Source of the DNA: Nitrosovibrio sp. Nv4
GTDB lineage: Bacteria > Pseudomonadota > Alphaproteobacteria > Acetobacterales > Acetobacteraceae
Length of the DNA stretch: 40,633 nucleotides
NCBI GenBank assembly: GCA_943330455.2
Contig: CALQHT020000013.1
Coordinates: 1-40,633 of the forward strand
Reading direction: 5' to 3'
The position numbers and the translations under genes are program-made. The notes under the pieces were generated by a model. The model saw only the letters and a program-made list of their open reading frames with translations. It did not search any database and was not told where the DNA came from. Shown here piece by piece: positions 3,271 through 26,511 of the stretch (position 1 is the first letter of the stretch; each line of letters begins with the position of its first letter).

Positions 3271-4587
3271 ATGCCCGCGACGAACGACTTCAAGGTTAAG
3301 GATTTCTCTCTCGCCGAATGGGGGCGGAAGGAAATCTCGATGGCCGAGGACGAAATGCCGGGCCTGATGGCGATCCGGAAGGAATACGGCAAGGCCCAGC
3401 CGCTGGCCGGCGCGCGGATTGCCGGGTGCCTGCACATGACCATCCAGACCGCGGTGCTGATTGAGACCTTGACGGCACTCGGCGCCAGCGTGCGCTGGTC
3501 GTCCTGCAATATTTTCTCGACCCAGGACCATGCCGCCGCCGCCGTTGCCGCCGCGGGCACCCCTGTCTTCGCCTGGAAAGGCCTGAACGAGGAAGAATTC
3601 TGGTGGTGCATCGAGCAGACGGTGCGCGGTCCTGCCCAGGGGACCGGTGACGCCTGGACGCCGAACATGATCCTGGATGACGGCGGCGACCTGACCGTCC
3701 TGATGCATCAGAAATACCCCGAGATGCTGAAGGACGTGCGCGGCATCTCCGAGGAGACCACCACCGGCGTGCACCGTCTGTGGGACATGGCGAAGGCCGG
3801 CACGCTGTTGACTCCCGCCATCAACGTCAACGACAGCGTCACCAAGTCGAAGTTCGACAATCTGTATGGCTGCCGTGAGTCGCTGGTGGACGGCATCCGC
3901 CGCGGCACCGACGTGATGATGGCCGGCAAGATCGCCGTGGTGAACGGCTTCGGCGATGTCGGCAAGGGGTCGGCCGCGTCGCTGCGCAATGCCGGCTGCC
4001 GGGTGATGGTGACGGAAGTCGATCCGATCTGCGCGTTGCAAGCGGCGATGGAAGGCTACCAGGTCGTCACCATGGACGATGCCGCGTCGCAGGGCGACAT
4101 CTTCGTCACCGCGACCGGCAATATCGACGTGATCACCATCGATCACATGCGCGCCATGAAGCATCGCGCCATCGTCTGCAACATCGGTCATTTCGACTCC
4201 GAGATTCAGATCGACGCGCTGCGCAACTACACCTGGGACAACGTCAAGCCGCAGGTCGATGAGGTCGTGTTCCCCGACGGCAAGCGCCTGATCGTGCTGT
4301 CCGAGGGGCGCCTGGTGAATCTGGGCAACGCCACCGGCCATCCCAGCTTCGTGATGAGCGCCAGCTTCAGCAACCAGGTGCTGGCGCAGATCGAGCTCTA
4401 CAACGCCGCGCCGGGCACCTATGACTGCACGCAGGTGTACACGCTGCCGAAGCATCTGGACGAAAAGGTCGCCGCGCTGCATCTGGCGAAGGTTGGTGCG
4501 ACCTTGACCAAGCTGTCTCCGAAGCAGGCGGAATATCTGGGTATTGCCACCCAGGGGCCGTTCAAGCACGACCTGTATCGGTACTGA
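3271..4587 (+). CDS. ahcY: S-adenosylhomocysteine hydrolase (adenosylhomocysteinase)
   Basis: Cleaves S-adenosylhomocysteine to adenosine and homocysteine in the cytoplasm, which relieves product inhibition of methyltransferases. The 438-residue length is normal for the bacterial enzyme. Visible landmarks are [16 protein letters not shown] near residue 50, the NAD-binding glycine loop [12 protein letters not shown] near residue 218, [10 protein letters not shown] near residue 296, and the C-terminal FKHDLYRY that reaches into the partner subunit's NAD site. An AGGAG at 3260-3264 lies 6 nt before the ATG and fixes the start. It is divergent from the TauD-type gene and stands alone. The window has many methyl-transfer enzymes but none is linked in an operon. 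Confidence 0.97.
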
Positions 4588-8381: not shown

Positions 8382-9293
8382 CTCCCAGTTGAAGTGATAA
8401 TGAGTGCGCCTCGGCTTACGACCGCGCCTGCGCCAGGAGACAGGCCAAGCTGGCCAACGGCGCGACAGCCGCCCGACCTGCCAAGCCTCTATCCGGCATC
8501 GTGCCCGAAATCAGGCAGGGGGCAAATGGCAGCCTACGAAACAGGCGGTAGTTGATGTTTTTCGACGCAGATATGAACGACAGGTTAACAACCGGGAGGC
8601 GGAACAAATACCCCCGATTCCCGCGCAAATTTGCAACGAAACCCCGGGCTTTCCACGGTATTTCGCAACGAACCGGGCGGCCGCCAATCTTAATGTAAGC
8701 TCTCAAAACGACCTGAATCATCGCATCATATCAGTCAGATACCATGTGATCCTGATGTCGTATCTTAAATACCGCGAGGACCGTGACAACCCTCCGCCCA
8801 GGCGTTCTCAAAACAAAGACGCGCGCGTTAACCGACTGCACAGTATTTCTACAGACATTGTCCAATCAATATCTTACGGCTCGATCCTCATCCAGAGACT
8901 CCGCCCGGATGCGAATTTCCTTGCCACAAGACATCTCGTCGCCCTAGAACATAAAGTGAATATCCAGGCTGCCCCGTGACCTCCCAACCGTTCAAAAACC
9001 AACCGCACGCGTTCGAATCCAGCCTGCGAGGCCGCGTGCGCATCTGTGTTGGGGTGCCGTTGGCGACGACCTGCCACTCGATCGCCGGCCTCTCCACCAG
9101 GTCGCCGAGCCCGGACGGCGGATTGTGCTCGTCTGTCCCGGAAGCCCGTGATGGCGGCGCTGCCCGATACGGCCGCTTCCTGGTCCGCGGCGCCTTGCCT
9201 GGTCCTCGCACGCCCGGTTTCCGTTCCGCCGACCATGAACCAGCGTTACAAATCAAGCTCGGCTGACCACCGGAAGGCGAGAAATCGAGCCCC
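8382..9293. other. Long stretch without a recognised gene
   Basis: About 0.9 kb between the MITE-like element and the DUF4337-like gene. Its first half is lower in GC than its surroundings. A 191-codon open frame (8404-8979, plus strand) exists but its translation is rich in Arg, Pro and Asn, shows no motif and has no ribosome binding site, so I do not call it. Overlapping frames on both strands at 8870-9330 also look non-coding. It may be a decayed insertion. Confidence 0.5.
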
Positions 9294-9869
9294 TCACCAC
9301 AAATGCAGCGCCACCCCGAACGCGAACACACCGGCGCCGATCCCGATCGTGCCGGCGCCGATCGCCATCGCCGGCACCGCGGTCAATGCCGAAACCGACG
9401 CCAGGACGATCGCGATTTCCACCGCGCTCGCCGCATATTCGAAGGCGTGATAGTCATGCAGAGCGTGATCCCGGATCGTCGTGCGCTCCTTCGCCTTCTC
9501 CGCGATCTGTTTCATCCCCTCCCCGGTCGCAGGCTCGTCGCGCATCCGCGCAACGTAATCCTTGGCATCCTGGATCTTCTTCGCGAGCGTCGGGTCGGTG
9601 GTACTGCCCAGCGTTTCCAGCAACGCCGCTTCCGACCCGCGAACGACCGAGCGCAAATTCTTCGCCTGATAGAACGCCCAGTCGTTGGTCAGCGAAATAT
9701 GGCTGGTCAGATATTCGTTCTGCGCGTGTTTCTCGCCGACCTGGATCAGCGCCAGGATCGCCGCCAGGCACGACACCAGGACCGCAATCCGTTTCATGCC
9801 CTTGTTGTCGCTGGCTTGATGCGCCTCATGATGCACCGCTTCCTGCGCGTGTTCCACCGGATTGGTCAA
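9294..9869 (-). CDS. DUF4337-like membrane protein
   Basis: A 191-residue protein of unknown function that matches the DUF4337 pattern I know: a His/Glu-rich start (NPVEHAQEAVHHEAH), one N-terminal membrane helix (RIAVLVSCLAAILALIQV), a conserved soluble stretch with NDWAFYQAKNLR, and two C-terminal hydrophobic helices (residues about 145-190). The soluble middle is rich in Lys/Glu helix. I chose the TTG at 9869 because GGAG lies 8 nt before it; another TTG at 9914 in frame has no such site. It is divergent from the CoA-transferase gene with a 62-bp gap. Role unknown. Confidence 0.8.
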   Translation of the reverse strand: MTNPVEHAQEAVHHEAHQASDNKGMKRIAVLVSCLAAILALIQVGEKHAQNEYLTSHISLTNDWAFYQAKNLRSVVRGSEAALLETLGSTTDPTLAKKIQDAKDYVARMRDEPATGEGMKQIAEKAKERTTIRDHALHDYHAFEYAASAVEIAIVLASVSALTAVPAMAIGAGTIGIGAGVFAFGVALHLW

Positions 9870-9931
9870 CGCCGCTTCTCCTTCACTTCGCCCTGCGCCA
9901 TGGTAGCGGAACAAGAGAGAGGAAGCAGCCC

Positions 9932-11125
9932 ATGAAAGTCCTGGACGGTATTAAGGTCGTCGATCTCAGCCGCGTGCTCGCCGGCCCCTATTGCGCGCAG
10001 TTGCTGGCCGATTTCGGCGCGACCGTCATCAAGGTGGAAAGCCCGGAGGGTGACGAAAACCGCCGTTGGCCGCCGATGTCGCCGGATGGGCAGAGCGCCA
10101 ATTTCGGCTCGGTCAATCGCGGCAAGCGGTCCATGGTGCTGAACCTGAAGAACCCGGACGCGCGGGATGTGCTGAAGCAGCTTGCCGCCAAGGCCGACGT
10201 GCTGATCCACAGTTTCCTGCCCGATACCGCCGCTCGCCTAGGCATCAGCCTGGAAGCGCTGCGAGAGGCCAATCCGCGTTTGGTGGTCTGCACCATCTCC
10301 GGCTATGGCGCCGAGGGGCCGTTGGCGGAAAAGCGCGGCTACGACCTGATGGTGCAGGCGTTTGGCGGCGCGATGTCGACGACCGGGATCGTGGACGGGC
10401 CGCCGATCCGCTGCGGGGTGTCGTTCATCGACATGTCCACCGGCATTTCCTGTTACGCGGGTGTGGTGACGGCCCTGCTGGCGCGCGCGACCACCGGCAA
10501 GGGCACCTGGGTGCGCGGGTCTCTGCTGGAAACCGCGATTTCGCTGCTGGGCTATCACGCGGTGGCCTGGATGCAGGCCGGCGTCCTGCCGCAGCCGCAA
10601 GGCTCCGGCAGTTGGCACCTGGTGCCGTATCAGGCGTTCATGTGCGCCGATGGCTTCATGCTGGCCGGCGCGCCGAACGATGGCGCGTGGAACCGGTTCT
10701 GCGACGCGCTGGAATGGCCCGACCTGGCCGTCGATCCGCGCTTCATCGGCAATATCAAGCGGGTGGAGCAGCGCGATGTGCTGATCCCGATGCTGGAGGA
10801 GCGTTTCGGCCGCCATCCCGTCGGCTATTGGGTCGAACGGTTCGAAGCACGCGGCGTCGCGTGCTCCCCGCTGCACACGGTGGACCAGGTGATGACGCAT
10901 CCGCAGGTGATCGCCAATGCGATGCGCGTGCAGGCGAAAGGCGCCGACGGCACGATGCAGGACCTGGTCGGCACGCCGTTCAAGCTGGCCGAGGGCGGCG
11001 GCACCGCCGCCACCGCCGCACCGGTTCTGGGGGCGGAAACGGAGGTGATCCTGGCGGAAACCCTGGGATTATCGCCGGACCGGATCGCCGCGTTGCGCAG
11101 TGGGGGAGCATTCACGTTGGGATGA
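9932..11125 (+). CDS. CaiB/BaiF family (class III) CoA-transferase
   Basis: A 397-residue enzyme that moves CoA between carboxylic acids in the cytoplasm. The N-terminus has the family signature LDGIKVVDLSRVLAGPYCAQ followed by LADFGATVIKVE. The catalytic Asp that forms the acyl-aspartyl anhydride is Asp167 in SFIDMSTG. Near the C-terminus, RGVACSPLHTVDQV is also typical. The start at 9932 is preceded by GAGAGGAAG; the frame is open upstream but that part is antisense to the DUF4337-like gene. A Bug-type binding protein and an MFS transporter follow on the same strand, suggesting uptake and activation of an organic acid. The substrate cannot be told. Confidence 0.92.
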   Translation: MKVLDGIKVVDLSRVLAGPYCAQLLADFGATVIKVESPEGDENRRWPPMSPDGQSANFGSVNRGKRSMVLNLKNPDARDVLKQLAAKADVLIHSFLPDTAARLGISLEALREANPRLVVCTISGYGAEGPLAEKRGYDLMVQAFGGAMSTTGIVDGPPIRCGVSFIDMSTGISCYAGVVTALLARATTGKGTWVRGSLLETAISLLGYHAVAWMQAGVLPQPQGSGSWHLVPYQAFMCADGFMLAGAPNDGAWNRFCDALEWPDLAVDPRFIGNIKRVEQRDVLIPMLEERFGRHPVGYWVERFEARGVACSPLHTVDQVMTHPQVIANAMRVQAKGADGTMQDLVGTPFKLAEGGGTAATAAPVLGAETEVILAETLGLSPDRIAALRSGGAFTLG

Positions 11126-16203: not shown

Positions 16204-16572
16204 ATGCTTGAAACATTTGTCGAATTCACGTTCGAAGCAGCTCATCAGGTGCCGCCACACTCGACACTTCATGGTCATTCGTTCCGCGTCGTCGTCTACA
16301 TGACCGGGGAGCGTGATCCGATTTTTGGCTGGTCGCACAATCTGTATGACGTCCAGGCCGCGGTGAGCGAGACCAGGCAGCGGCTGCAGGACTCCTATCT
16401 GAACGATATCGAAGGGTTGGAGATACCATCTCTGGAAAACGTCGCGACCTGGATCTGGGACCGCCTGGATCCGGTGGTCCCCGGCCTCGATCGCGTGCTG
16501 ATCCGCCGCGGCATCGAAGGCGCGGGAGAGGGCTGTTCCTACTCCGGTCGCGACCTGCGAAACGCCGCCTGA
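16204..16572 (+). CDS. 6-pyruvoyl-tetrahydropterin synthase/QueD-like protein, copy 1, catalytic residues replaced
   Basis: A 122-residue T-fold protein of the PTPS/QueD family, which converts dihydroneopterin triphosphate (the FolE product). The three zinc ligands are intact: His14 in FEAAH, and His23 and His25 in LHGHSF. The catalytic Cys (Cys27 of E. coli QueD, four residues before the HGH) is His19 here, and the catalytic Asp-His pair (Asp70-His71 in E. coli) reads Gln-Asp in RLQDSYLND. So normal QueD or PTPS chemistry is doubtful; a different pterin product or a binding role is possible. I chose the ATG at 16204, which aligns with copy 2; a GTG at 16192 is the alternative. The stop overlaps the folE ATG by one base. 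Confidence 0.85.
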   Translation: MLETFVEFTFEAAHQVPPHSTLHGHSFRVVVYMTGERDPIFGWSHNLYDVQAAVSETRQRLQDSYLNDIEGLEIPSLENVATWIWDRLDPVVPGLDRVLIRRGIEGAGEGCSYSGRDLRNAA

Positions 16573-17237
16573 TGACAGCCATCCATCGACTGGTCCGGCC
16601 TCGGCGCGCGAATGAAGCCATGGACGTGCCGCTGGTCGACGCGGAGCGGCAGCTCCTGACCGCCGCGGCGGCGGTCAAGATCGGAGAGTTGTTCGATATC
16701 CTGCATATCGATCACCGCAACGACCACAATACCCGCGATACGCCGCGCCGCGTTGCCAAGATGTTCGTCGAGGAGATGATGCGGGGCCGGTTTTCCGCCC
16801 CCCCCGTGCTGACCGGGTTCGACAATGTCCATAATTTCGATCAACTGATCGTGATCGGCCCGATCGATGTTCGATCCACCTGTGCGCATCATCTGATGCC
16901 AATATATGGGGATGCATTCATCGGCGTATTGCCGTCGGAGACTGGGCAGATCATCGGGTTGTCGAAATACGATCGCATCGTCGATCACTTTTGCGGGCGC
17001 CTCCAGATCCAGGAGGAGCTGGTCAAGCAGATCGGTCAGTTCATCATGGATCAGACCTCCCCTCGGGGCGTCGCGGTCCGCATCAGCGCCGTGCATATGT
17101 GCAAGACCCACCGCGGGGTGCGGGCGAGCCATCGCAGCCGCATGATCACCGGAGCCTATTTCGGCTCGCTCGCCGACGATCACGAACTGAAAGCGGAATT
17201 CCTGACGGAATGCGCGGAATTGGCGCGGTCGACTTAA
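16572..17237 (+). CDS. folE: GTP cyclohydrolase I, copy 1
   Basis: Converts GTP to 7,8-dihydroneopterin triphosphate, the first step of folate and pterin synthesis. It has 221 residues, a normal bacterial length. The zinc ligands are present in RSTCAHHLMP and AVHMCKTHRG. IIGLSKYDRIV and LQIQEELVKQI supply the substrate-site Ser, Lys, Gln and Glu. One oddity is CAHH where E. coli and human enzymes have CEHH; copy 2 shares it. Its ATG overlaps the stop of the PTPS-like gene (TGATG), so the two are translationally coupled. A housekeeping FolE may exist elsewhere; this one is probably dedicated to the signalling locus. About 75% identical to copy 2 (166 of 221 by hand alignment). Confidence 0.93.
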   Translation: MTAIHRLVRPRRANEAMDVPLVDAERQLLTAAAAVKIGELFDILHIDHRNDHNTRDTPRRVAKMFVEEMMRGRFSAPPVLTGFDNVHNFDQLIVIGPIDVRSTCAHHLMPIYGDAFIGVLPSETGQIIGLSKYDRIVDHFCGRLQIQEELVKQIGQFIMDQTSPRGVAVRISAVHMCKTHRGVRASHRSRMITGAYFGSLADDHELKAEFLTECAELARST

Positions 17238-17486
17238 GTGCCCGCACGAAAACAGAGTGTGGTTTTTCAAAGAGTTACCGAGAGGGGGGTGGCAGGCGCG
17301 GCTCTGAGAGCGATGCGGGGCCGCAACGCCCGAGACGCCCACGGTAGCCCATTGAAAAGGCACGTTATGTTTCCGGATGGACACTAAGAAAACCCAGTTT
17401 AGGAGCGGCGGACGGGACACTGCGGTCGGGGCAGGCCTAACGGCGGATTTTTCATACGGATATGGGGCATATCGGGGATCAACGAG

Positions 17487-17996
17487 ATGGGCTTGACCAG
17501 ACGCGCTTTCGGAACCTCGGTCCTTGCCGCTGGGATGGCGGGGCGCGCCCAGGCCGCGGAGCTGCCGCCGATCGCCGGCAAGGCGATCCTGACGGTGTCG
17601 GGGCGGATCGGCGCCTTCAACGCCGACAAGCGCGCGGTGTTCGACCGCCCGCTGCTGGAAAGCCTGGGAATGACCGGATTTACCACCACAACCCCGTGGC
17701 ATGACGGTCCGGTCCGGTTCGAAGGCGTCCTGATGTCGCGCCTGATGGAAACCGTGCAGGCATCCGGGGATATGGTGATCGCCACCGCGTTGAACGACTA
17801 CGAGACCCGTATCCCCATGATGGATTTTACCGAGTTCAACGTGCTGCTGGCATTGAAGCGCGACGGCGAATACATGCCGGTGCGTGACAAAGGCCCGCTG
17901 TTCATCGTGTATCCGTTCGACAGCAACCCGGCCCTGCGCCTGCAAAAATATTACAGCCGCTCCGCCTGGCAACTCGCGCGTCTTGTCGTGATATGA
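17487..17996 (+). CDS. PruR-like periplasmic SUOX-fold pterin-binding protein
   Basis: A 169-residue exported protein. The leader has a twin-arginine motif (LTRRAFGTSVLAAG) and likely ends at AQA. The body is a small oxidoreductase molybdopterin-binding (SUOX) domain: TVSGRIG, TPWHDGPVRFEGVLM (residues 70-83), PMMDFTEFNVLLAL, GPLFIVYPFD (residues 136-145) and KYYSRSAWQL. It has no cysteine at all, so it cannot bind molybdenum as sulfite oxidase does. This matches PruR of Agrobacterium tumefaciens, which binds pterins and controls the dual cyclase-phosphodiesterase DcpA. It overlaps the DcpA-like gene by 4 bp (ATGA) and lies 249 bp after folE; that gap holds no gene. The ribosome binding site is weak (GGGGAT). 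Confidence 0.85.
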   Translation: MGLTRRAFGTSVLAAGMAGRAQAAELPPIAGKAILTVSGRIGAFNADKRAVFDRPLLESLGMTGFTTTTPWHDGPVRFEGVLMSRLMETVQASGDMVIATALNDYETRIPMMDFTEFNVLLALKRDGEYMPVRDKGPLFIVYPFDSNPALRLQKYYSRSAWQLARLVVI

Positions 17997-20509
17997 CCGA
18001 CGGGCGGACGCCGCCTTCGATACAGCCCGTCGAACGAACCACGAGCGGTCGCAACACGCCCAGACGCTTTGTCGTGGCGCTGGGATGCCTCAGCGGGTTC
18101 CTGATCCTCGCCGCGTCATACATATCCGTCCTGGTGACGGAGCGCCAAAGGTCGCTTGAGGCGGTTTCCCGCTACAACTCCACATGGCTCCTCACCCAGG
18201 CCGCCGTGGAGGTTGCTCGCCTGGAAGCCACGATCGGTGGCTATGCGCTGGGGATCAGCGGTGTCGATAAGGACGAACTGCATCTTCGGATGGAGATCGT
18301 CGCCAACCGCGTCCGCCTGCTCGACAGCGGCGAGGTGCGGACCTTGATCGCCGTATTCCCCGATCTGGGCGCGGCCGAACAGGAGTTCCGCGAAGCCATC
18401 GCCGCGGCGCACCATTTGGTGGACGAAATCGACACGCCGGGCGTTCCGCAGAAACTGCTGGAGCGTCTGTCCGCCCTGAATCCCAAGCTGATGCGTCTGG
18501 CATCCTCGGGCTATGCCTATGGCGGTGATCTCGCCGCCGCCGATCTTGCGCAGTTAAGCTCGATGCATTGGCTGTTTTCGGGCGTACTGGCCGGCCTGAT
18601 CGGCTGCGGTTTCGCGCTGATCGGGGTTCTGGGCTGGCACAACCGCATGCTGTTCCGCGCCCATGCCGCGGTGAACGAACTGGTCACCGACCTGAAGCAC
18701 ACCAGTACCGAGCTGTCGGACGCAAATCAGCGTGTCCAGGAGGCGATGAGCGAGGCCCAGCAACAGAATGAGGTCCTGCGCGCTCGGGATGTGGAACTGC
18801 ATACCCAGAATGCGCGCTTCGACGCCGCGTTGAACAACATGTCGCAGGCGCTGTGCATGGTTGACGCGAACCAGCGGCTGATCGTCTGCAATGTCCGGTT
18901 CCAGGAACTGTTCGGCACCTTGCCGGATGCGGTGCAGCCCGGCAGCTCGGTGGCCGATGTGTATCGCGCCATTGAAGCGGCCAACCGATATGACATCCAA
19001 CTCATAGAGGCGATCCGGCGCGACCAGCAGGAGCTTGTGTTCTCGCATCGCCCCGGCAACTTCCTGCACGATGTTCCGGATGGGCCCGCCCTGGCGGTAT
19101 CCCACCAACCCATGTCCGGCGGTGGCTGGGTCGCCACCTACGAAGACGTCACCGCTCGGCGGCAGGCGGAGGCGCGGATCCGCTTCATGGCGCATCACGA
19201 TACCCTGACCAGTCTGCCCAATCGCGCCCTGCTGCATGAGCGTTTGGCCGCGATGCTGCGGGAGCCGGGGAGACGTGGGGAACGTCTTGCGGTTCTCTGC
19301 CTGGATCTCGACTTCTTCAAAACCGTCAACGACACCCTCGGCCATCCGGTCGGCGATGCGTTGCTGGAAGCCGTGGCCGACCGGTTGCGGCACTGCGTGC
19401 GGGATGACGATCTGGTGGCGCGTATCGGGGGCGACGAGTTCGCGATCCTGCAGCCGTCCGCGGGTCACCCGAGGCAGGCGGAACTGCTGTCTCAGCGGAT
19501 CATTGAAAGCCTGTCACAGCCATACGACCTGGACGGCCAGCGAGTCATCATGGGTGTCAGCGTCGGCATCGCGATTGCCATGGAACCCGGCGGTGACGCC
19601 AATCTGCTGATGAAATGCGCGGACATGGCTCTGTACTGCGCGAAGGCGGACGGCCGTGGCACCTATCGCTTCTTCCGTCCTGAAATGGGTGCGGCGATGC
19701 AGACCCGACGGACCATGGAACTGGACCTGCGGGAGGCGATGGTGAATGAGGACTTCACCGTCTACTACCAGCCCATATTCGACCTGAGGGCCAACCGCGT
19801 GAGCGGGTTTGAGGCGTTGGTGCGCTGGCAGCATCCGTTGAACGGGCTGGTCTCGCCGGGTGATTTCATCGCCTTGGCCGAAGAATTGGGCCTGATCGTC
19901 CCGATCGGCGAGTGGATCCTCACACGGGCCTGCCGCGACGCCGCGACCTGGCCGGACGAGTTGCGCGTATCGGTCAATCTGTCTCCCGTGCAGTTCCGGG
20001 GCGAGAGTCTGGTGACGACGGTCGGTCGCGCGTTGCAGGCATCGGGCCTGTCGCCTCGACGCCTGGAGCTTGAGATTACCGAGTCGGCCCTGTTGCAGGA
20101 CAGTGAGAAGGTCGTCTCCGAGTTGCACAAGCTGCGCGATCTGGGTCTGCGGATCGCGCTCGACGATTTCGGCACCGGCTATTCGTCACTGAGCTATCTG
20201 CGCAGTTTTCCGTTCGACAAGCTGAAGATCGATCAGTCCTTCGTGCGGGAAATGGGCACGCGTCCGGACTGCCGAGCGATCGTGCATTCGGTGGCGGCGC
20301 TGGCGTCGAGTTTGGGGATTATCACCACCGCCGAGGGGGTCGAGTCGGAAGAACAGCTCCAGGAGATCCGCTTGGCTGGCTGTGCGGAGGCCCAGGGCTA
20401 CTACTTCGATCGTCCGATGCCGGTCGAGGATTTGCATCGATGGTTTTATCCGCGTTCGGACGATCTCAAGGACAGACATATGTACCTTGAACCGAATATA
20501 CATGTATGA
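17993..20509 (+). CDS. DcpA-like membrane PAS-GGDEF-EAL c-di-GMP enzyme, copy 1
   Basis: An 838-residue inner-membrane protein that should both make and break c-di-GMP. Order: TM1 about 26-49, a helical periplasmic domain about 50-190, TM2 about 193-214, coiled coil about 225-270, PAS about 275-390, GGDEF about 398-560, EAL about 575-825. The active motif is GGDEF at 479-483, with a product-inhibition site RDDD at 470-473. The EAL domain keeps EAL at 607-609, VNLSP, EITES, DDFGTG at 724-729, KIDQSF and TAEGVE, so both activities look intact. Its start overlaps the PruR-like stop (ATGA). By analogy with DcpA, PruR would bind the periplasmic domain and bias the enzyme. The C-terminus ends in an unusual tail. 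Confidence 0.93.
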   Translation: MTDGRTPPSIQPVERTTSGRNTPRRFVVALGCLSGFLILAASYISVLVTERQRSLEAVSRYNSTWLLTQAAVEVARLEATIGGYALGISGVDKDELHLRMEIVANRVRLLDSGEVRTLIAVFPDLGAAEQEFREAIAAAHHLVDEIDTPGVPQKLLERLSALNPKLMRLASSGYAYGGDLAAADLAQLSSMHWLFSGVLAGLIGCGFALIGVLGWHNRMLFRAHAAVNELVTDLKHTSTELSDANQRVQEAMSEAQQQNEVLRARDVELHTQNARFDAALNNMSQALCMVDANQRLIVCNVRFQELFGTLPDAVQPGSSVADVYRAIEAANRYDIQLIEAIRRDQQELVFSHRPGNFLHDVPDGPALAVSHQPMSGGGWVATYEDVTARRQAEARIRFMAHHDTLTSLPNRALLHERLAAMLREPGRRGERLAVLCLDLDFFKTVNDTLGHPVGDALLEAVADRLRHCVRDDDLVARIGGDEFAILQPSAGHPRQAELLSQRIIESLSQPYDLDGQRVIMGVSVGIAIAMEPGGDANLLMKCADMALYCAKADGRGTYRFFRPEMGAAMQTRRTMELDLREAMVNEDFTVYYQPIFDLRANRVSGFEALVRWQHPLNGLVSPGDFIALAEELGLIVPIGEWILTRACRDAATWPDELRVSVNLSPVQFRGESLVTTVGRALQASGLSPRRLELEITESALLQDSEKVVSELHKLRDLGLRIALDDFGTGYSSLSYLRSFPFDKLKIDQSFVREMGTRPDCRAIVHSVAALASSLGIITTAEGVESEEQLQEIRLAGCAEAQGYYFDRPMPVEDLHRWFYPRSDDLKDRHMYLEPNIHV

Positions 20510-20629: not shown

Positions 20630-21001
20630 ATGCTTGAAACATTCATCGAATTTACGTTCGAAGCGGCGCACAAGGTGCCTCCGTACTCCGGTCTGCATGG
20701 CCATTCCTTTCGGGCCATCGTGTATATGACCGGGGAGAGAGATCCGCATTTCGGATGGACTCATAATCTGTTCGACGTCTCGAAGGCAGTGAAGGCGACC
20801 CAGCAACGGCTGGATGAGTCGTATCTGAATGACATCAAGGGTCTGGAGGTCCCGTCTCTGGAGCATGTCGCGGCCTGGATCTGGGAGGATCTGGACAAGG
20901 CAATCCCCGGGCTGGACCGGGTCGTGCTGCGGCGCGGTATGGATGGGGCGGGCGAGGGCTGCTGCTATTCGGGCCGCGCCACGGTTCGGAGTGCGGCCTG
21001 A
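20630..21001 (+). CDS. 6-pyruvoyl-tetrahydropterin synthase/QueD-like protein, copy 2, catalytic residues replaced
   Basis: A 123-residue paralogue of the protein at 16204, about 70% identical by hand alignment (86 of 122). Zinc ligands His14, His23 and His25 are kept. The position of the catalytic Cys is Tyr19, and the catalytic His is replaced (RLDESYLND). Both copies thus lost the same Cys and His but with different substitutes, which suggests neither position is under catalytic constraint. The tail GAGEGCCYSG is shared with copy 1 and differs from QueD. The ATG at 20630 is the shared start; the ribosome binding site is weak. Its stop overlaps the folE copy 2 ATG (TGATG). Confidence 0.86.
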   Translation: MLETFIEFTFEAAHKVPPYSGLHGHSFRAIVYMTGERDPHFGWTHNLFDVSKAVKATQQRLDESYLNDIKGLEVPSLEHVAAWIWEDLDKAIPGLDRVVLRRGMDGAGEGCCYSGRATVRSAA

Positions 21002-21666
21002 TGTCGCGGGTGCAAAGACTTTGTATTCCACGCCTGGCCAATGAATCCATCGACTATACGCCTTCGGACACGCAACGCGCGGCGATGATCGGCGCCGCGG
21101 CCGGTAAGCTCTCGGAACTGTTCGACATCCTGTATGTCGATCACCAGCACGACCACAACACGCGTGACACGCCCAGCCGGGTTGCTCGCATGCTGATCGA
21201 GGATACGATGCGCGGCCGTTTCTCCGGCCCGCCGGTCATCACCGGGTTCGACAACGTGACGGCTTTCGATCAGTTGATCGTGATTGGTCCGATCGATGTC
21301 CGCTCGACCTGTGCACATCACCTGATGCCGATCTATGGGGATGCCTATATCGGGGTGTTGCCGGCCGAGACCGGGCGGATTATCGGCCTTTCGAAATACG
21401 ATCGTATTGTTGACTATTTCTGCGGACGTTTGCAAATCCAGGAAGAACTGGTCAAGCAGATCGGCCAGTTCATCATGGACAAGACACTGCCGCGTGGTGT
21501 CGCGGTCCGCATCAGTGCTGTACATATGTGCAAGACGCATCGTGGCGTGCGTGCCAGCCACCGCAGTCGCATGGTGACCAACGCCTATTTCGGCGCGCTG
21601 GCACAAGATCCAACCCTGAAGGCGGAGTTCATGAACGAGATCGCCGATCTCGCGCGCCAGAGTTGA
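21001..21666 (+). CDS. folE: GTP cyclohydrolase I, copy 2
   Basis: A 221-residue paralogue of the enzyme at 16572. The whole catalytic core from GPIDVRSTCAHHLMP to CKTHRGVRASHRSRM is nearly unchanged between the two, while the first 60 residues have drifted. Zinc ligands, the Ser-Lys pair and the Gln-Glu pair are all present, so it should be active. It shares the CAHH variant of the usual CEHH. It is coupled to the PTPS-like copy 2 by TGATG overlap, and 102 bp later the second DcpA-like gene begins. No PruR-like gene lies in that gap. Two active FolE enzymes in 5 kb implies demand for a pterin beyond folate. Confidence 0.93.
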   Translation: MSRVQRLCIPRLANESIDYTPSDTQRAAMIGAAAGKLSELFDILYVDHQHDHNTRDTPSRVARMLIEDTMRGRFSGPPVITGFDNVTAFDQLIVIGPIDVRSTCAHHLMPIYGDAYIGVLPAETGRIIGLSKYDRIVDYFCGRLQIQEELVKQIGQFIMDKTLPRGVAVRISAVHMCKTHRGVRASHRSRMVTNAYFGALAQDPTLKAEFMNEIADLARQS

Positions 21667-21768
21667 GCGGTTGGTAGCGCCAGCTCCGATGATCGCATGA
21701 TCGATGTCAGTCCAACCCTCGCCATTGCTGACTTCTGACACGGTCCTTCCGCCGGCCGGGATGGTAAC

Positions 21769-24282
21769 GTGGGTGAGGCGATATTGTCCGGTCGGTCACT
21801 CCTGATGGGCGTGCTGTCATCGCGGTTCTGGTATTCGCTCCGCCGCGTGCCCGGTGCGGCGAGCGCGCAGTTCAACTTCCAGGTTGTCTTCACTTGCGTC
21901 ACCGGATTCCTGGTGCTGCTCGCGTCCTATATTTCGCTGTTGATCGTGGAGCGGCAGACATCGCTCGATGCCGTCTCCCGCTACAACTCGACATGGCTGC
22001 TCAGCCAGGCAGCGACCGAGATGGCGCGACTTTACGGCACAGTGGCGGCCTATGCGGTGCCCGGTTCCACGTTGGGACCCGACGATGTGCAGCTTCGGCT
22101 CGATATTGTCGTCAATCGCGTTCGGATGTTCGACGACGCGGAGGTGCGAGGACTGATCCGGTCCTCGTCCAGCCTGACCGAAATCGCGAACGACGTGCGC
22201 GACGCCATTGCTGCCGCGCAACTGATGCTGGATGGCTTGGACGGGCCGAGCAGTGTCGGAAAGCTGCTGGCGCATCTGGAGCCGGTGAACGGCAAACTCG
22301 TGCGGCTGGCTTCGGCGGCCCACGTCCAAAGCGGGGCGCTGGCGGCGGCCGATCAGGCGCAACTCAGTCGGTTGCATTGGATTTTCTCGGGCGTTCTGGT
22401 TTCCCTGGTCGCATGCGGGTTCGTGCTGATCGGTGTGCTGAGCTGGCATAACCGCTTGCTGGTGACCGCGCACGACAAGGTCAATCTGCTGGTCGACGAC
22501 CTGACCCATACCGGCAATGAACTGTCCGCGGCGAACCAGCGCGCGGTCGCGGCGATGAACGAGGTACGCTATCGCAACAAGATCCTGCAGGCGCGCGATA
22601 ACGAGTTGAACACCCAGAACGCGCGCTTCGATGCCGCGTTGAACAACATGTCGCAGGCTTTGTGCATGGTCGACATGCACCAGCGTCTGATCGTCTGCAA
22701 TGTCCGGTTTACCGAACTGTTCGGATTGTCGCAGGACGACGTGCCGCCCGGCACTCCGGTCGGGGAGATCTTCGGCAAGATCATTGCGCAGGCTCGACTG
22801 GATCCGGAACTGGTCCGCGGCATCCAGTCGGCGCAGGAGGCATTGGTCTTTTCCCACAACCCCGGCGGTTTTCTGAAGGAAGTCGACCAGGGCCCCGCGC
22901 TTGCGGTGTCACACCAGCCGATGATCGGTGGCGGCTGGGTTGCGACCTATCAGGAAGTGACCGAACAGCGACGGGCGGAGGCGCGCATCCGGTTCATGGC
23001 GCATCATGATTCGCTGACCGGCCTGGCAAACCGCGCGTTGCTGCATGAACGGATGACAGCCTCCCTGCGGGAACCGTTGCGGGGGGAGCGGCTTGCCGTG
23101 CTGTGCGTCGATCTGGATCATTTCAAGAGTGTCAACGATACCTTGGGTCACCCGTTGGGCGATGCCCTGCTGCGGATCGTGGCGGAACGCCTGCGGCGAT
23201 GCGTGCGCGGGGCGGATATGGTGGCGCGCATGGGGGGCGATGAATTCGCTGTCCTGCAATTCTCGTCGGATCATCCCCGGCAGGCGGAGCTGCTGGCGCA
23301 ACGCATCGTCGCCAGCCTGTGCCAGCCCTATTCGCTGGACGGACAGCGCGCGATCATCGGTGCCAGCGTCGGCATCGCGGTGTCCTCGGAACAAGCTTGC
23401 GACGCCGACATGCTGCTGAAATGCGCCGACATGGCCTTGTATCGCGCCAAAGCGGACGGGCGTGGCACCTATCGCTTCTTCGAGGCAGAAATGGATGCCG
23501 AAATCCAGGCTCGGCGCGCCATGGAGCTCGATCTGAGGGAGGCCCTGACCAAGGACGAGTTCGTCCTTTACTATCAGCCGGTCTTCAACCTCGCCTCCGA
23601 TCGGTTGAGCGGCTTCGAGGCGCTGATGCGATGGAACCATCCGGTGCACGGCATGATCCCGCCCGCGCGCTTCATCCCGCTGGCCGAGGAACTGGGTCTG
23701 ATCATTCCCATGGGAGAATGGGCGATCCGTCAGGCCTGTGAGGATGCGTCGGCCTGGCCGGGGGATCTGAAGGTGGCGGTCAATCTGTCACCCGTGCAGT
23801 TCCGCAGCGAGCTTCTGGTAGAGGCGATCGAAGACGCCCTGTCGCGCACCGGTCTGGATCCACGCCGGTTGGAGCTGGAAATCACCGAGACCGCCCTGCT
23901 GCGCAACACCGAAGCGGTCACGAACATCCTGCACCGGCTGCGTGACAGCGGCGTGCGCATCGTGCTGGACGATTTCGGCACCGGCTACTCGTCGTTGAGC
24001 TACCTGCGCAGCTTTCCGTTCGACAAGCTGAAGATCGACCAGTCGTTCGTGCGGGAAATGGCCACCCGCGCCGATTGTCTGGCGATCGTCAACTCGGTGG
24101 CGGCGCTGGCTGCGTGCCTAGGCATCACCACCACGGCGGAAGGGGTGGAGACCGCCGAACATCTGGCGCAGGTCCGAGGCGCTGGCTGCGGAGAGGCCCA
24201 GGGCTATTTTTTCGACCGACCGCAGCCGGTGCACGCCATTCAGAAATGGTTGCCGGTCGTGGAGGTCCGCCAGGTGGCGTGA
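21769..24282 (+). CDS. DcpA-like membrane PAS-GGDEF-EAL c-di-GMP enzyme, copy 2
   Basis: An 837-residue paralogue of the protein at 17993 with the same layout: TM1 about 38-60, a periplasmic domain about 61-200, TM2 about 203-224, PAS about 285-400, GGDEF 489-493, inhibition site RGAD 480-483, EAL 617-619, DDFGTG 734-739. Both catalytic domains look intact. The periplasmic domain shares SRYNSTWLL and the helical pattern after it with copy 1, but the middle of the domain is more diverged. The start is a GTG at 21769 without a clear ribosome binding site; an ATG at 21805 is an alternative. It has no PruR-like partner of its own and may share the one from module 1. Confidence 0.92.
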   Translation: MGEAILSGRSLLMGVLSSRFWYSLRRVPGAASAQFNFQVVFTCVTGFLVLLASYISLLIVERQTSLDAVSRYNSTWLLSQAATEMARLYGTVAAYAVPGSTLGPDDVQLRLDIVVNRVRMFDDAEVRGLIRSSSSLTEIANDVRDAIAAAQLMLDGLDGPSSVGKLLAHLEPVNGKLVRLASAAHVQSGALAAADQAQLSRLHWIFSGVLVSLVACGFVLIGVLSWHNRLLVTAHDKVNLLVDDLTHTGNELSAANQRAVAAMNEVRYRNKILQARDNELNTQNARFDAALNNMSQALCMVDMHQRLIVCNVRFTELFGLSQDDVPPGTPVGEIFGKIIAQARLDPELVRGIQSAQEALVFSHNPGGFLKEVDQGPALAVSHQPMIGGGWVATYQEVTEQRRAEARIRFMAHHDSLTGLANRALLHERMTASLREPLRGERLAVLCVDLDHFKSVNDTLGHPLGDALLRIVAERLRRCVRGADMVARMGGDEFAVLQFSSDHPRQAELLAQRIVASLCQPYSLDGQRAIIGASVGIAVSSEQACDADMLLKCADMALYRAKADGRGTYRFFEAEMDAEIQARRAMELDLREALTKDEFVLYYQPVFNLASDRLSGFEALMRWNHPVHGMIPPARFIPLAEELGLIIPMGEWAIRQACEDASAWPGDLKVAVNLSPVQFRSELLVEAIEDALSRTGLDPRRLELEITETALLRNTEAVTNILHRLRDSGVRIVLDDFGTGYSSLSYLRSFPFDKLKIDQSFVREMATRADCLAIVNSVAALAACLGITTTAEGVETAEHLAQVRGAGCGEAQGYFFDRPQPVHAIQKWLPVVEVRQVA

Positions 24283-24286
24283 CCCG

Positions 24287-24952
24287 TCAGCCCGTTGGCG
24301 TGTAGCGCCACACGCTCGCGGGCGGAAAATTCAGCGGGGTCCAGGCTTCCCGTTTGGCGGCCAGGTGGTGATGCCGATAGGGCAGGGGGGACGTTGCGCA
24401 GTAGCTGAAATGCAGGAATCCCTTGCCGGGTGCGACCGCGTCCATTGCGTCGATGAACCGGCGCTGTTCGTCCCGCGGCAGCAGCACCAGCGGGATGCCG
24501 CAGATGACGGTGCCGATGCGGCCCTGGCAATGCTCCGGTATCAGGGCAGGCAACTGGCGGGCGTCGCCCTGGATTACCAGCACGCCTGGCAGGACTCGAC
24601 GCAGGTGATCCGCCATATCCGGCACGATTTCGACGACGATCAGCCGGTCCGCCGGAACGCCACCGGCGAGCAGAGCCCGTGAAATGACGCCGGTTCCGGC
24701 GCCAAGCTCCACCACCACTTCGTTGGGTTTGTACTGGGTCTGCGCGACGATATGGTGGCACAATGTCGCCGACGATGGCACGATCGAACCCATCTGCAGC
24801 GGGTTGGCCAACCAGCGACGGAAGAACATGCTGCGATTGGCAACCTTTCTGCTGCCTTGGACGTGAGCGTCCGGCACAAGCCGGTCGTCCGACTGTAGTA
24901 TTTCTGTCATGGAACTGTCATCTTCCACATAATACTTGACGTCATTGCCCAT
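24287..24952 (-). CDS. Class I SAM-dependent methyltransferase, PmtA-like
   Basis: A 221-residue methyltransferase. The SAM-binding motif I is VVELGAGTGVISRALL near residue 82, and motif II is IVVEIVPDM near residue 105. The helix FFRRWLANPLQMGSIVPSS before motif I is typical of the phospholipid N-methyltransferase (Rhodobacter PmtA) and rRNA dimethylase-like group, so methylation of phosphatidylethanolamine at the membrane is the likely role. The start at 24952 is an ATG; another in frame at 24910 (MTEILQ) is possible. It is convergent with the DcpA-like copy 2 (4 bp between stops) and divergent from pleD. Confidence 0.8.
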   Translation of the reverse strand: MGNDVKYYVEDDSSMTEILQSDDRLVPDAHVQGSRKVANRSMFFRRWLANPLQMGSIVPSSATLCHHIVAQTQYKPNEVVVELGAGTGVISRALLAGGVPADRLIVVEIVPDMADHLRRVLPGVLVIQGDARQLPALIPEHCQGRIGTVICGIPLVLLPRDEQRRFIDAMDAVAPGKGFLHFSYCATSPLPYRHHHLAAKREAWTPLNFPPASVWRYTPTG

Positions 24953-25137
24953 TAGACCAAACCGGCAAGTGGCGGAAGCCCTGCTGTGAGAGCGCTCTGA
25001 TGGCGTCCTCCGGGCGCTTGTCCGGCAAATCGCGGTTTCAGCGCACGGGTCGGCTTTTACGCCGTGCCCGGCTGGGTTAATGTTTCAACGGCCGGTCACT
25101 CCGACGGCCGGTTGCAACAAGGTGAATCCCTCAAGGC

Positions 25138-26511
25138 ATGAGTGCCCGGATCCTGATCGTCGACGATGTGCCTGCCAACACGCGGCTTCTCGAAGCCAAG
25201 CTGTCGGCGGAGTACTATCAGGTAGCCAGCGCCCCGGATGGGTTCGAGGCGCTGAAGAAGGCCCGCGACTGGCAGCCCGATCTGATCCTGCTGGACGTCA
25301 TGATGCCTGGCATGGACGGGTATGAGTGCTGCCGAAAGCTGAAAGAGGCCCCCGCGACCCTGCATATCCCCGTGGTGATGGTGACCGCGCTGGGAGAGCC
25401 GAGCGAACGGCTGCGAGGGCTGGAGGCGGGGGCGGACGATTTTCTGACGAAGCCCGTGGATTACGACACCCTGCGGGCGCGTGTCCGCAGCCTGGTCCGC
25501 TTGAAGCGCCTGCTGGACGAATCCCGGGCCCGCGGGGAAACCGCTCGTGCGCTTGGACTGGCGGGAGATTTCCTGCCCGCCCCTTCGGTTGCCGGCGCCA
25601 ACGCGCTGATCGTGGACGACTGGGATTTGGGTGCACGCACCATTCAGGACGCGCTGGCCCGGGATGGCATCCTCCCGGTCGTGGTGCGGACCGAGGCGGA
25701 AGCCATGGCGAAGAGTGCCGCCGGCGCTTTCGACCTGATCGTGGTGAGCATGTCGCTCGCCGACGAAGATCCCCTGCACCTGATCTCCAGCTTGCGCGCG
25801 TCCGACAGGACCCACGACACGCCGATGCTGCTGATCGCGGAACCCGAGGAACGGGAGAGGATCCTGCGCGGCTTCGAACTGGGGGCCAGCGATTGGCTGA
25901 CCTTGCCGGTAGACGAAAACGAATTGCGGGCGCGGGCGCGCAACCAGGTGCGACGGAAATTCTACCAGGACAGGCTGCGGGCAGACCTTGGCACCGCCCT
26001 GGAAATGGCTCTGATCGACCCCCTAACCGGCCTCTACAACCAGCGCTATCTCCGCCGCCACCTGCTCGGCCTTATCGAGAACGGGCCGACCCGCGATCTT
26101 GCCGTCCTGATGATCGACATCGACCACTTCAAGTCGGTCAATGACCGGTTCGGCCATGCCACCGGCGATGAGGCATTGCGCATGGTCGCGGCCAGTCTGC
26201 GAGCCAACACGCGGGTGTTCGACTCGGTTGCCCGCTATGGTGGCGAGGAATTTGTTGTCGTCATGCCGGGTGGCGACATCGAAGATGCCGTCGCCGCCGC
26301 GGAACGGCTCCGTGTGGCCGCCGAGACGATCGAATTACCGGTCCCATTCGGCGGCACGACACACCTGACGATCAGTGTCGGCGTGGCGTGCTCGACCGGT
26401 GCCGCCGCCACGGTTGAAACCATGCTGCTGGCGGCCGATCAGGCGCTGTACGAAGCCAAGCGTGCTGGGCGCAACCGGGTCGCGGTCGCGCCGGTCACCG
26501 CAACTACTTGA
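25138..26511 (+). CDS. pleD: PleD-type response regulator diguanylate cyclase (REC-REC-GGDEF)
   Basis: A 457-residue soluble cyclase that makes c-di-GMP when phosphorylated. REC1 (1-120) has the acid pair Asp9-Asp10, phospho-acceptor Asp53 ([11 protein letters not shown]), Thr83 and Lys105. REC2 (about 155-270) is degenerate, with Ser204 at the acceptor position, just as in Caulobacter PleD where it serves dimerisation. The output domain has GGEEF at 368-372 and a product-inhibition site RVFD at 359-362. In many Alphaproteobacteria divK precedes it, but none is here. It is convergent with rpmG and the coding ends overlap by 8 bp. A 9-bp direct repeat ACGGCCGGT (25088-25096, 25104-25112) lies upstream. 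Confidence 0.95.

Follow-up and report, generated by a model that had tools for sequence, protein, structure and literature searches.

Does a bacterium that reads a pterin through a PruR-type sensor also encode, beside that sensor, the enzymes that could make the signal? The question is raised by a locus in the window, the 40,633-nucleotide stretch analysed here, which is contig C13 of the draft 6.48 Mb source genome (G000, labelled Nitrosovibrio sp. Nv4) and whose nearest named records are metagenome-assembled genomes (MAGs) of Acetobacteraceae and Rhodospirillales. At positions 16204-20509 the first-pass annotation had seen four families in one run, a PTPS/QueD-like gene, folE, a Cys-free SUOX-domain gene and a membrane PAS-GGDEF-EAL gene, and had proposed a complete circuit that makes a pterin and reports it as the level of cyclic di-GMP (c-di-GMP). 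Pfam profile matches confirm all four families, and the TGATG and ATGA overlaps described at the first and last junctions are present in the sequence. We conclude that this is probably a PruR-DcpA pterin-signalling locus carrying its own ligand-making enzymes, whose FolE and PTPS paralogues we denote FolE′ and PTPS′. The window locus is a tandem duplication, with a second PTPS-FolE-GGDEF/EAL module at 20630-24282 that directly follows the first and has the same TGATG junction, although no pruR stands between FolE′ 2 and DcpA-like 2. The genes are as follows.

16204..16572, + strand: PTPS′ 1, a PTPS/QueD-fold protein of 122 amino acids (PF01242, 72.9 bits)
16572..17237, + strand: FolE′ 1, a GTP cyclohydrolase I paralogue of 221 amino acids (PF01227, 147.2 bits)
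17487..17996, + strand: PruR-like protein of 169 amino acids, Cys-free (PF00174, 26.8 bits at a cut-off of 24; 7KOS, E 4.8e-53)
17993..20509, + strand: DcpA-like 1, with two hydrophobic segments flanking the W-X7-E region, PAS_7, GGDEF with RxxD, and EAL
20630..21001, + strand: PTPS′ 2, 123 amino acids (PF01242, 71.7 bits), 73% identical to PTPS′ 1
21001..21666, + strand: FolE′ 2, 221 amino acids (PF01227, 143.6 bits), 75% identical to FolE′ 1
21805..24282, + strand: DcpA-like 2, with W-X7-E, GGDEF and EAL; its start is uncertain, GTG at 21769 being open as well

A MAG from the same genus, labelled as Asaia bogorensis (G017), has both modules too, split over two contigs, and its counterpart of the second module (L031) likewise has no PruR. 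Window-type PTPS (at least 60% identity) is found in 5 of 33 genomes of the genus, the source genome counted. Within the first module, folE′ and pruR are separated by 249 bases with no called gene inside, and no promoter- or terminator-like site lies near this gap on the + strand; overall, 6 terminator-like sites compare with 6.2 in shuffled sequence, and 5 promoter-like sites with 2.3.

Judged from its sequence, the SUOX-domain protein is a PruR-type predicted pterin-binding protein. Its best match in the PDB, 7KOS, is the pterin-binding PruR of Agrobacterium tumefaciens, described in a 2026 review by the PruR authors (PMC13259868; here and below, statements from this review concern its accessible portion), and this match marks the protein as PruR-like. 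We counted no cysteine in the protein, as the first-pass annotation had claimed, and a Trp stands where the molybdenum-ligating Cys would be. Because there is no Cys and the best match is a pterin-binding protein, we rejected a molybdoenzyme. The pterin-site residues given for A. tumefaciens PruR, Trp160, Tyr104 and Asn102 (PMC13259868), have as their window equivalents Trp161, Tyr105 and Asn103, all invariant in our alignment (A4). Near the N-terminus, the stretch TRRAF looks twin-arginine-like when read by eye, so that a length of about 170 residues is combined with a putative secretion signal.

The gene overlapping pruR encodes DcpA-like 1, which by its motifs is a DcpA-type putative dual GGDEF-EAL protein and is 64% identical to DcpA-like 2 over 793 columns. 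W-X7-E, the motif of DcpA, starts at residue 65 in DcpA-like 1 and at residue 64 in DcpA-like 2, and supports the earlier view of the membrane PAS-GGDEF-EAL gene as a DcpA-like output. Hydrophobic peaks at about residues 26-44 and 194-212 flank the W-X7-E region, as expected for a DcpA-type periplasmic domain, and both proteins have GGDEF and EAL motifs, with RxxD ahead of GGDEF.

A lack of co-occurrence of these families in related genomes had been named beforehand as a refuting outcome; the test did not refute, for the pairing recurs in relatives and on plasmids. We searched for PruR in 200 Acetobacteraceae genomes (matches in 43 at 1e-12), in 337 genomes of the class (53 at 1e-20) and in 398 of the phylum (31 at 1e-35), as well as in plasmids, where 590 records match, 40 were listed and the neighbourhoods of 7 were examined. 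From the places outside the source genome, the neighbourhood set takes in 44 of 45 in the family survey, 60 of 63 in the class survey (leaving out G362:C8, G308:C17 and G492:C4) and the 36 of the phylum survey, 31 newly taken and 5 already in the set. The locus tally leaves out L031 (no PruR), L068 (a duplicate record of L035) and L113-L115, and its dividing line of 228 PruR bits was chosen after the data were seen. At or above that line, PTPS lies no more than 3 kb from PruR in 32 of 39 loci, versus none of the 110 weaker ones; some FolE is present in 13 of the 39 (in L117 a canonical FolE), versus again none of 110. The notion that PruR in general carries such enzymes was thus rejected. Removing the seven PTPS-found loci (the window and six others) and restoring the duplicate L068 leaves PTPS in 26 of 33. 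In the family survey, PTPS adjoins PruR in 22 of 26 loci of at least 228 bits, 7 of the 26 having FolE′ too; those lacking PTPS are L072, which a contig end cuts, L082, L086 and L088, and none of the 18 weaker loci has PTPS or FolE′. The remaining family place (G145), where a contig end cuts PruR, has FolE′ and a PTPS of the HGY type beside the fragment and stands outside the tally of 39 and 110 loci.

PTPS is hence the more constant partner of PruR, encoded either co-directionally or divergently, and FolE′ the less constant one. An unrooted tree of 110 PruR rows has a branch (Shimodaira-Hasegawa-like approximate likelihood ratio test (SH-aLRT) 89) that sets off 48 rows, comprising every one of the 32 linked rows and 16 unlinked ones, and the linkage label changes 7 times versus 27.7 in shuffles; the unlinked rows on that side include pairs from Phyllobacterium, Pseudochrobactrum, Neorhizobium and Enterobacter. 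The outputs across linked loci are GGDEF-EAL proteins or histidine kinases. Since seven linked loci carry kinases (L073, L076, L081, L083, L084, L116 and L117), we rejected a module that always serves c-di-GMP; the window locus itself has the DcpA-type output proposed earlier. Of 51 outputs, 32 carry W-X7-E in an RYNxxW context, and the others have Phe or a different context. In two genomes, FolE′ and PruR have a gene for an EamA transporter between them (L032 in G031, 8950-9972; L033 in G019, 3592-4551), and its product is a candidate pterin exporter.

The converse search gave a nearly exclusive linkage. A FolE′ profile, built from both FolE′ copies of the window, five close relatives and a single housekeeping FolE, was run against the 200 Acetobacteraceae genomes and found 10 places at 339 bits or more, all of them beside PruR or DcpA and all accompanied by a PTPS gene, the next score being 259. 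Two are in the window and one each in G073, G163, G144, G216, G145, G120, G205 and G247; these eight were not part of the query, and at least one FolE match besides FolE′ is present in each of the nine FolE′-bearing genomes. In the family, all 12 places with window-type PTPS of at least 175 bits are beside PruR or DcpA (11 were in the query), as are 4 of 5 in the class (all four in the query). On plasmids, with the window PTPS′ as sole query, seven records exceed 140 bits, six from Aminobacter and one from Paroceanicella profunda; in all seven, PTPS′ lies about 0.35 kb or less from a PruR match, and the next match, from Escherichia coli, scores 102 bits. The PTPS-PruR pairing is therefore more than chance, because it recurs in relatives and on plasmids and because FolE′ occurs nowhere else in the 200 genomes.

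Are the linked proteins still enzymes? FolE′ shares C104, H106, H107, H175, C177, S131, K132, Q147 and E148 with the housekeeping FolE of the source genome, residues that we take to be the zinc and catalytic ones. FolE′ 1 scores below the curated NCBIfam folE cut-off (133.7 versus 181.6) and is for this reason regarded as a divergent paralogue. PTPS′ 1 likewise falls under the curated QueD cut-off (55.9 versus 89.25). Its AlphaFold model (pLDDT 90.5) adopts the QueD fold, with TM-scores of 0.82-0.86 to E. coli QueD chains. The three zinc His are retained, the catalytic Cys is gone, and the loop that holds this Cys in QueD is about six residues shorter; the stretch AAHQVPPHSTLHGH contains no Cys and hence lacks the CxxxHGH motif of QueD and PTPS-I. 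The motifs of PTPS-II (CxxxxxHGH), PTPS-III (ExxHGH) and PTPS-IV (FGPAQ) are likewise absent from the window PTPS copies. An FGPAQ-type member of the PTPS family is encoded elsewhere in the source genome (L113, G000:C198, 6973-7368).

The PTPS proteins encoded next to PruR are of three kinds: the window type, along with near relatives of it; a short type lacking Cys (L074, L075 and L079); and a CxxxHGY type, which has the Cys. The last makes up 9 of 33 linked copies and the catalytic Cys is absent from the other 24, yet the zinc His are present throughout the aligned Cys-less copies; the Asp-His pair is altered in the window genus and intact in most other linked copies. Cys is also missing from 11 of 16 que-neighbour PTPS examined in queC-queE clusters of other Alphaproteobacteria (L226-L242, L024), so that the loss of Cys does not prove PTPS′ dead. 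The earlier claim is supported in that pterin-type enzymes lie beside the sensor, with the correction that PTPS′ lacks the catalytic Cys of QueD/PTPS. In two other loci, Cys-less PTPS adjoins a PruA-type short-chain dehydrogenase/reductase (SDR) gene and folB (L229, 492-1875; L240, 1453-3118).

QueD-type chemistry gives a tetrahydropterin without a reductase. In our preferred explanation, FolE′ would turn GTP into 7,8-dihydroneopterin triphosphate, from which PTPS′, given its QueD fold, may make a tetrahydropterin with no separate reductase. The pterin would then get to the periplasm and be bound there by PruR as its ligand; A. tumefaciens PruR prefers a tetrahydropterin (PMC13259868). Loaded PruR would dock on the periplasmic domain of DcpA-like 1 and perhaps on that of DcpA-like 2, which has no pruR of its own and may share the sensor. 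The DcpA-type output might then alter c-di-GMP turnover, towards breakdown if the analogy with A. tumefaciens holds. For linked loci of the HGY type, the PTPS product may be 6-carboxytetrahydropterin, from which queuosine is made, because such a PTPS is encoded between queE and queC on Aminobacter pSR3. A bolder generalization, which we regard as possible though on balance doubtful, is a PruR clade with a self-made tetrahydropterin signal: reductase-free synthesis by FolE′ and a QueD-fold protein, export by an EamA-type protein in certain lineages, and sensing outside the inner membrane by PruR together with either DcpA or a kinase, altogether an autoinducer-like one-operon circuit, with 6-carboxytetrahydropterin plausible in HGY-type loci and perhaps another side chain in Cys-less ones.

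Several observations weigh against a locus that makes its own ligand. PTPS′ lacks the catalytic Cys, and the window genus also loses the His of the Asp-His pair. Of the 39 loci at or above 228 bits, 7 show no PTPS within 3 kb; one of these is truncated by a contig end. Another of the 7 is the source genome's second PruR (L112, G000:C57, 4998-7905), which lacks a nearby PTPS; downstream of it comes a histidine kinase that has receiver and Hpt domains, the PruR-DTB type. A. tumefaciens PruR scores 231.9 bits and yet is described as part of a two-gene operon. W-X7-E in its RYNxxW context is missing from 19 of the 51 outputs, and the fifth class place of window-type PTPS (G287:C75, 0.6 kb from a contig end) has no PruR within the 9 kb read, although that genome holds another copy beside PruR. 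The source genome further encodes, on contig C72 and adjoining a FolB gene, a PruA-type SDR (370.9 against a cut-off of 281), and a reductase route is therefore possible too. The complete circuit proposed earlier survives in part: sensor, output and pterin-type enzymes are linked across one PruR clade, but the window locus itself has no export gene and the PruA-type gene lies outside it.

Some of the same evidence bears on where else the enzymes might belong. FolE and QueD act in the first steps of queuosine biosynthesis, and FolE′ and PTPS′ could serve that pathway while PruR monitors a leaked intermediate or is just co-regulated. The source genome has QueC, and PF01242 finds in it only the two PTPS′ and the FGPAQ-type protein, no ordinary QueD; PTPS′ might therefore serve queuosine in this organism, which also counts against our explanation, as do the Cys-less PTPS of que operons noted above. 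The HGY type, too, is shared between PruR loci and the queE-queC interval of pSR3. We nevertheless consider a queuosine role unlikely. Where PruR-linked loci were scanned for QueC and QueE, neither adjoined the PTPS, and a QueE search that covered the window plus the opening 20,000 bases of two contigs, C94 and C72, found none. FolE′ keeps to PruR or DcpA in genomes that have other FolE genes as well, and the window-type loop is shorter than in the que-operon proteins. Aminobacter sp. SR38 bears PTPS′ next to PruR on one of its plasmids, while a different plasmid encodes another PTPS within a queE-queC cluster; in this strain PTPS′ is thus extra to the que-operon PTPS. On its plasmid pSR3 (L187, 4070-8868), a PruR-DcpA pair is divergent from an acyl-homoserine-lactone synthase and regulator, with queE-PTPS-queC downstream.

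Alternatively, PTPS′ may have lost its enzymatic role and act in the cytoplasm to bind pterins or to provide feedback, the PruR ligand being made by FolE′ or by housekeeping FolE with PruA. The loss of Cys from most linked copies, the altered Asp-His pair of the window genus and the PruA-type gene would all fit, yet the zinc His persist, Asp-His is intact in most linked copies outside that genus, the HGY-type copies keep their Cys and other Cys-less copies sit in que operons; on this evidence we think it improbable. That the gene order was simply inherited, one lineage's neighbours with no functional tie, strikes us as very improbable. The linked PruR rows do share one part of the tree, and the window, L032 and L033 have flanking glutathione S-transferase, methyltransferase and response-regulator GGDEF genes in common. 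But the kind and orientation of PTPS, the presence of FolE′ and the kind of output vary among loci while PTPS still lies next to PruR, and the pairing also occurs on Aminobacter and Paroceanicella plasmids. Such differing components at one and the same position speak more for a link with PruR than for an order handed down by descent. Downstream of the window locus, at 24290-26508, lie methyltransferase-type and response-regulator GGDEF genes, as they do in L032 and L033.

The best reading is that this PruR-DcpA pathway with its own ligand enzymes is a new form of a known system. By titles and abstract beginnings, we found no report within the open-access library searched that links PTPS or FolE genes with PruR, and the accessible part of a Novacetimonas paper (PMC12405394) holds nothing on them. 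According to the review, the in vivo pterin of PruR is unclear, no pterin efflux system has been identified so far and some PruR-bearing bacteria are without a pteridine reductase (PMC13259868). The PruR-tied enzymes, plus the transporter in two genomes, suggest what the ligand might be, how it could be made without a reductase and how it could be exported. The linkage offers a direct way of learning which pterin the sensor detects, in a pathway that would adjust the c-di-GMP level governing surface attachment, and the named carriers Aminobacter, Paroceanicella profunda and Pseudoroseomonas aerophila make the idea testable.

Like the PruA-PruR-DcpA system of A. tumefaciens (PMC13259868), the window has a pruR overlapping the gene of a DcpA-type GGDEF-EAL protein with W-X7-E, and the source genome has a PruA-type SDR gene. 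In contrast to that system, the window links PTPS and FolE paralogues to pruR and adds a tandem module without pruR; in the accessible portion of the review, PruR-regulator pairs are two-gene operons and no linked folE or PTPS is described for PruA-PruR-DcpA. The PruR-DTB systems, in which PruR is paired with a histidine kinase (PMC13259868), are matched by the outputs of the seven linked kinase loci and of the unlinked C57 PruR. They differ from the window, whose outputs are GGDEF-EAL, and from the linked kinase loci, which add PTPS and in some cases FolE′. PTPS′ resembles E. coli QueD (PTPS-I) in its modelled fold and zinc His, and departs from it in its shorter loop, its lack of the CxxxHGH Cys, its score below the curated cut-off and its place beside PruR. 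A network study reported FolE in the neighbourhood of a CxxxHGY-type PTPS cluster (PMC5445326, accessible in part). This motif is shared by the HGY-type PTPS next to PruR, which in six genomes comes after FolE′, so PruR-linked loci may partly explain those FolE neighbours; the accessible part of that study draws no connection to PruR, and the PTPS of the window is of another type.

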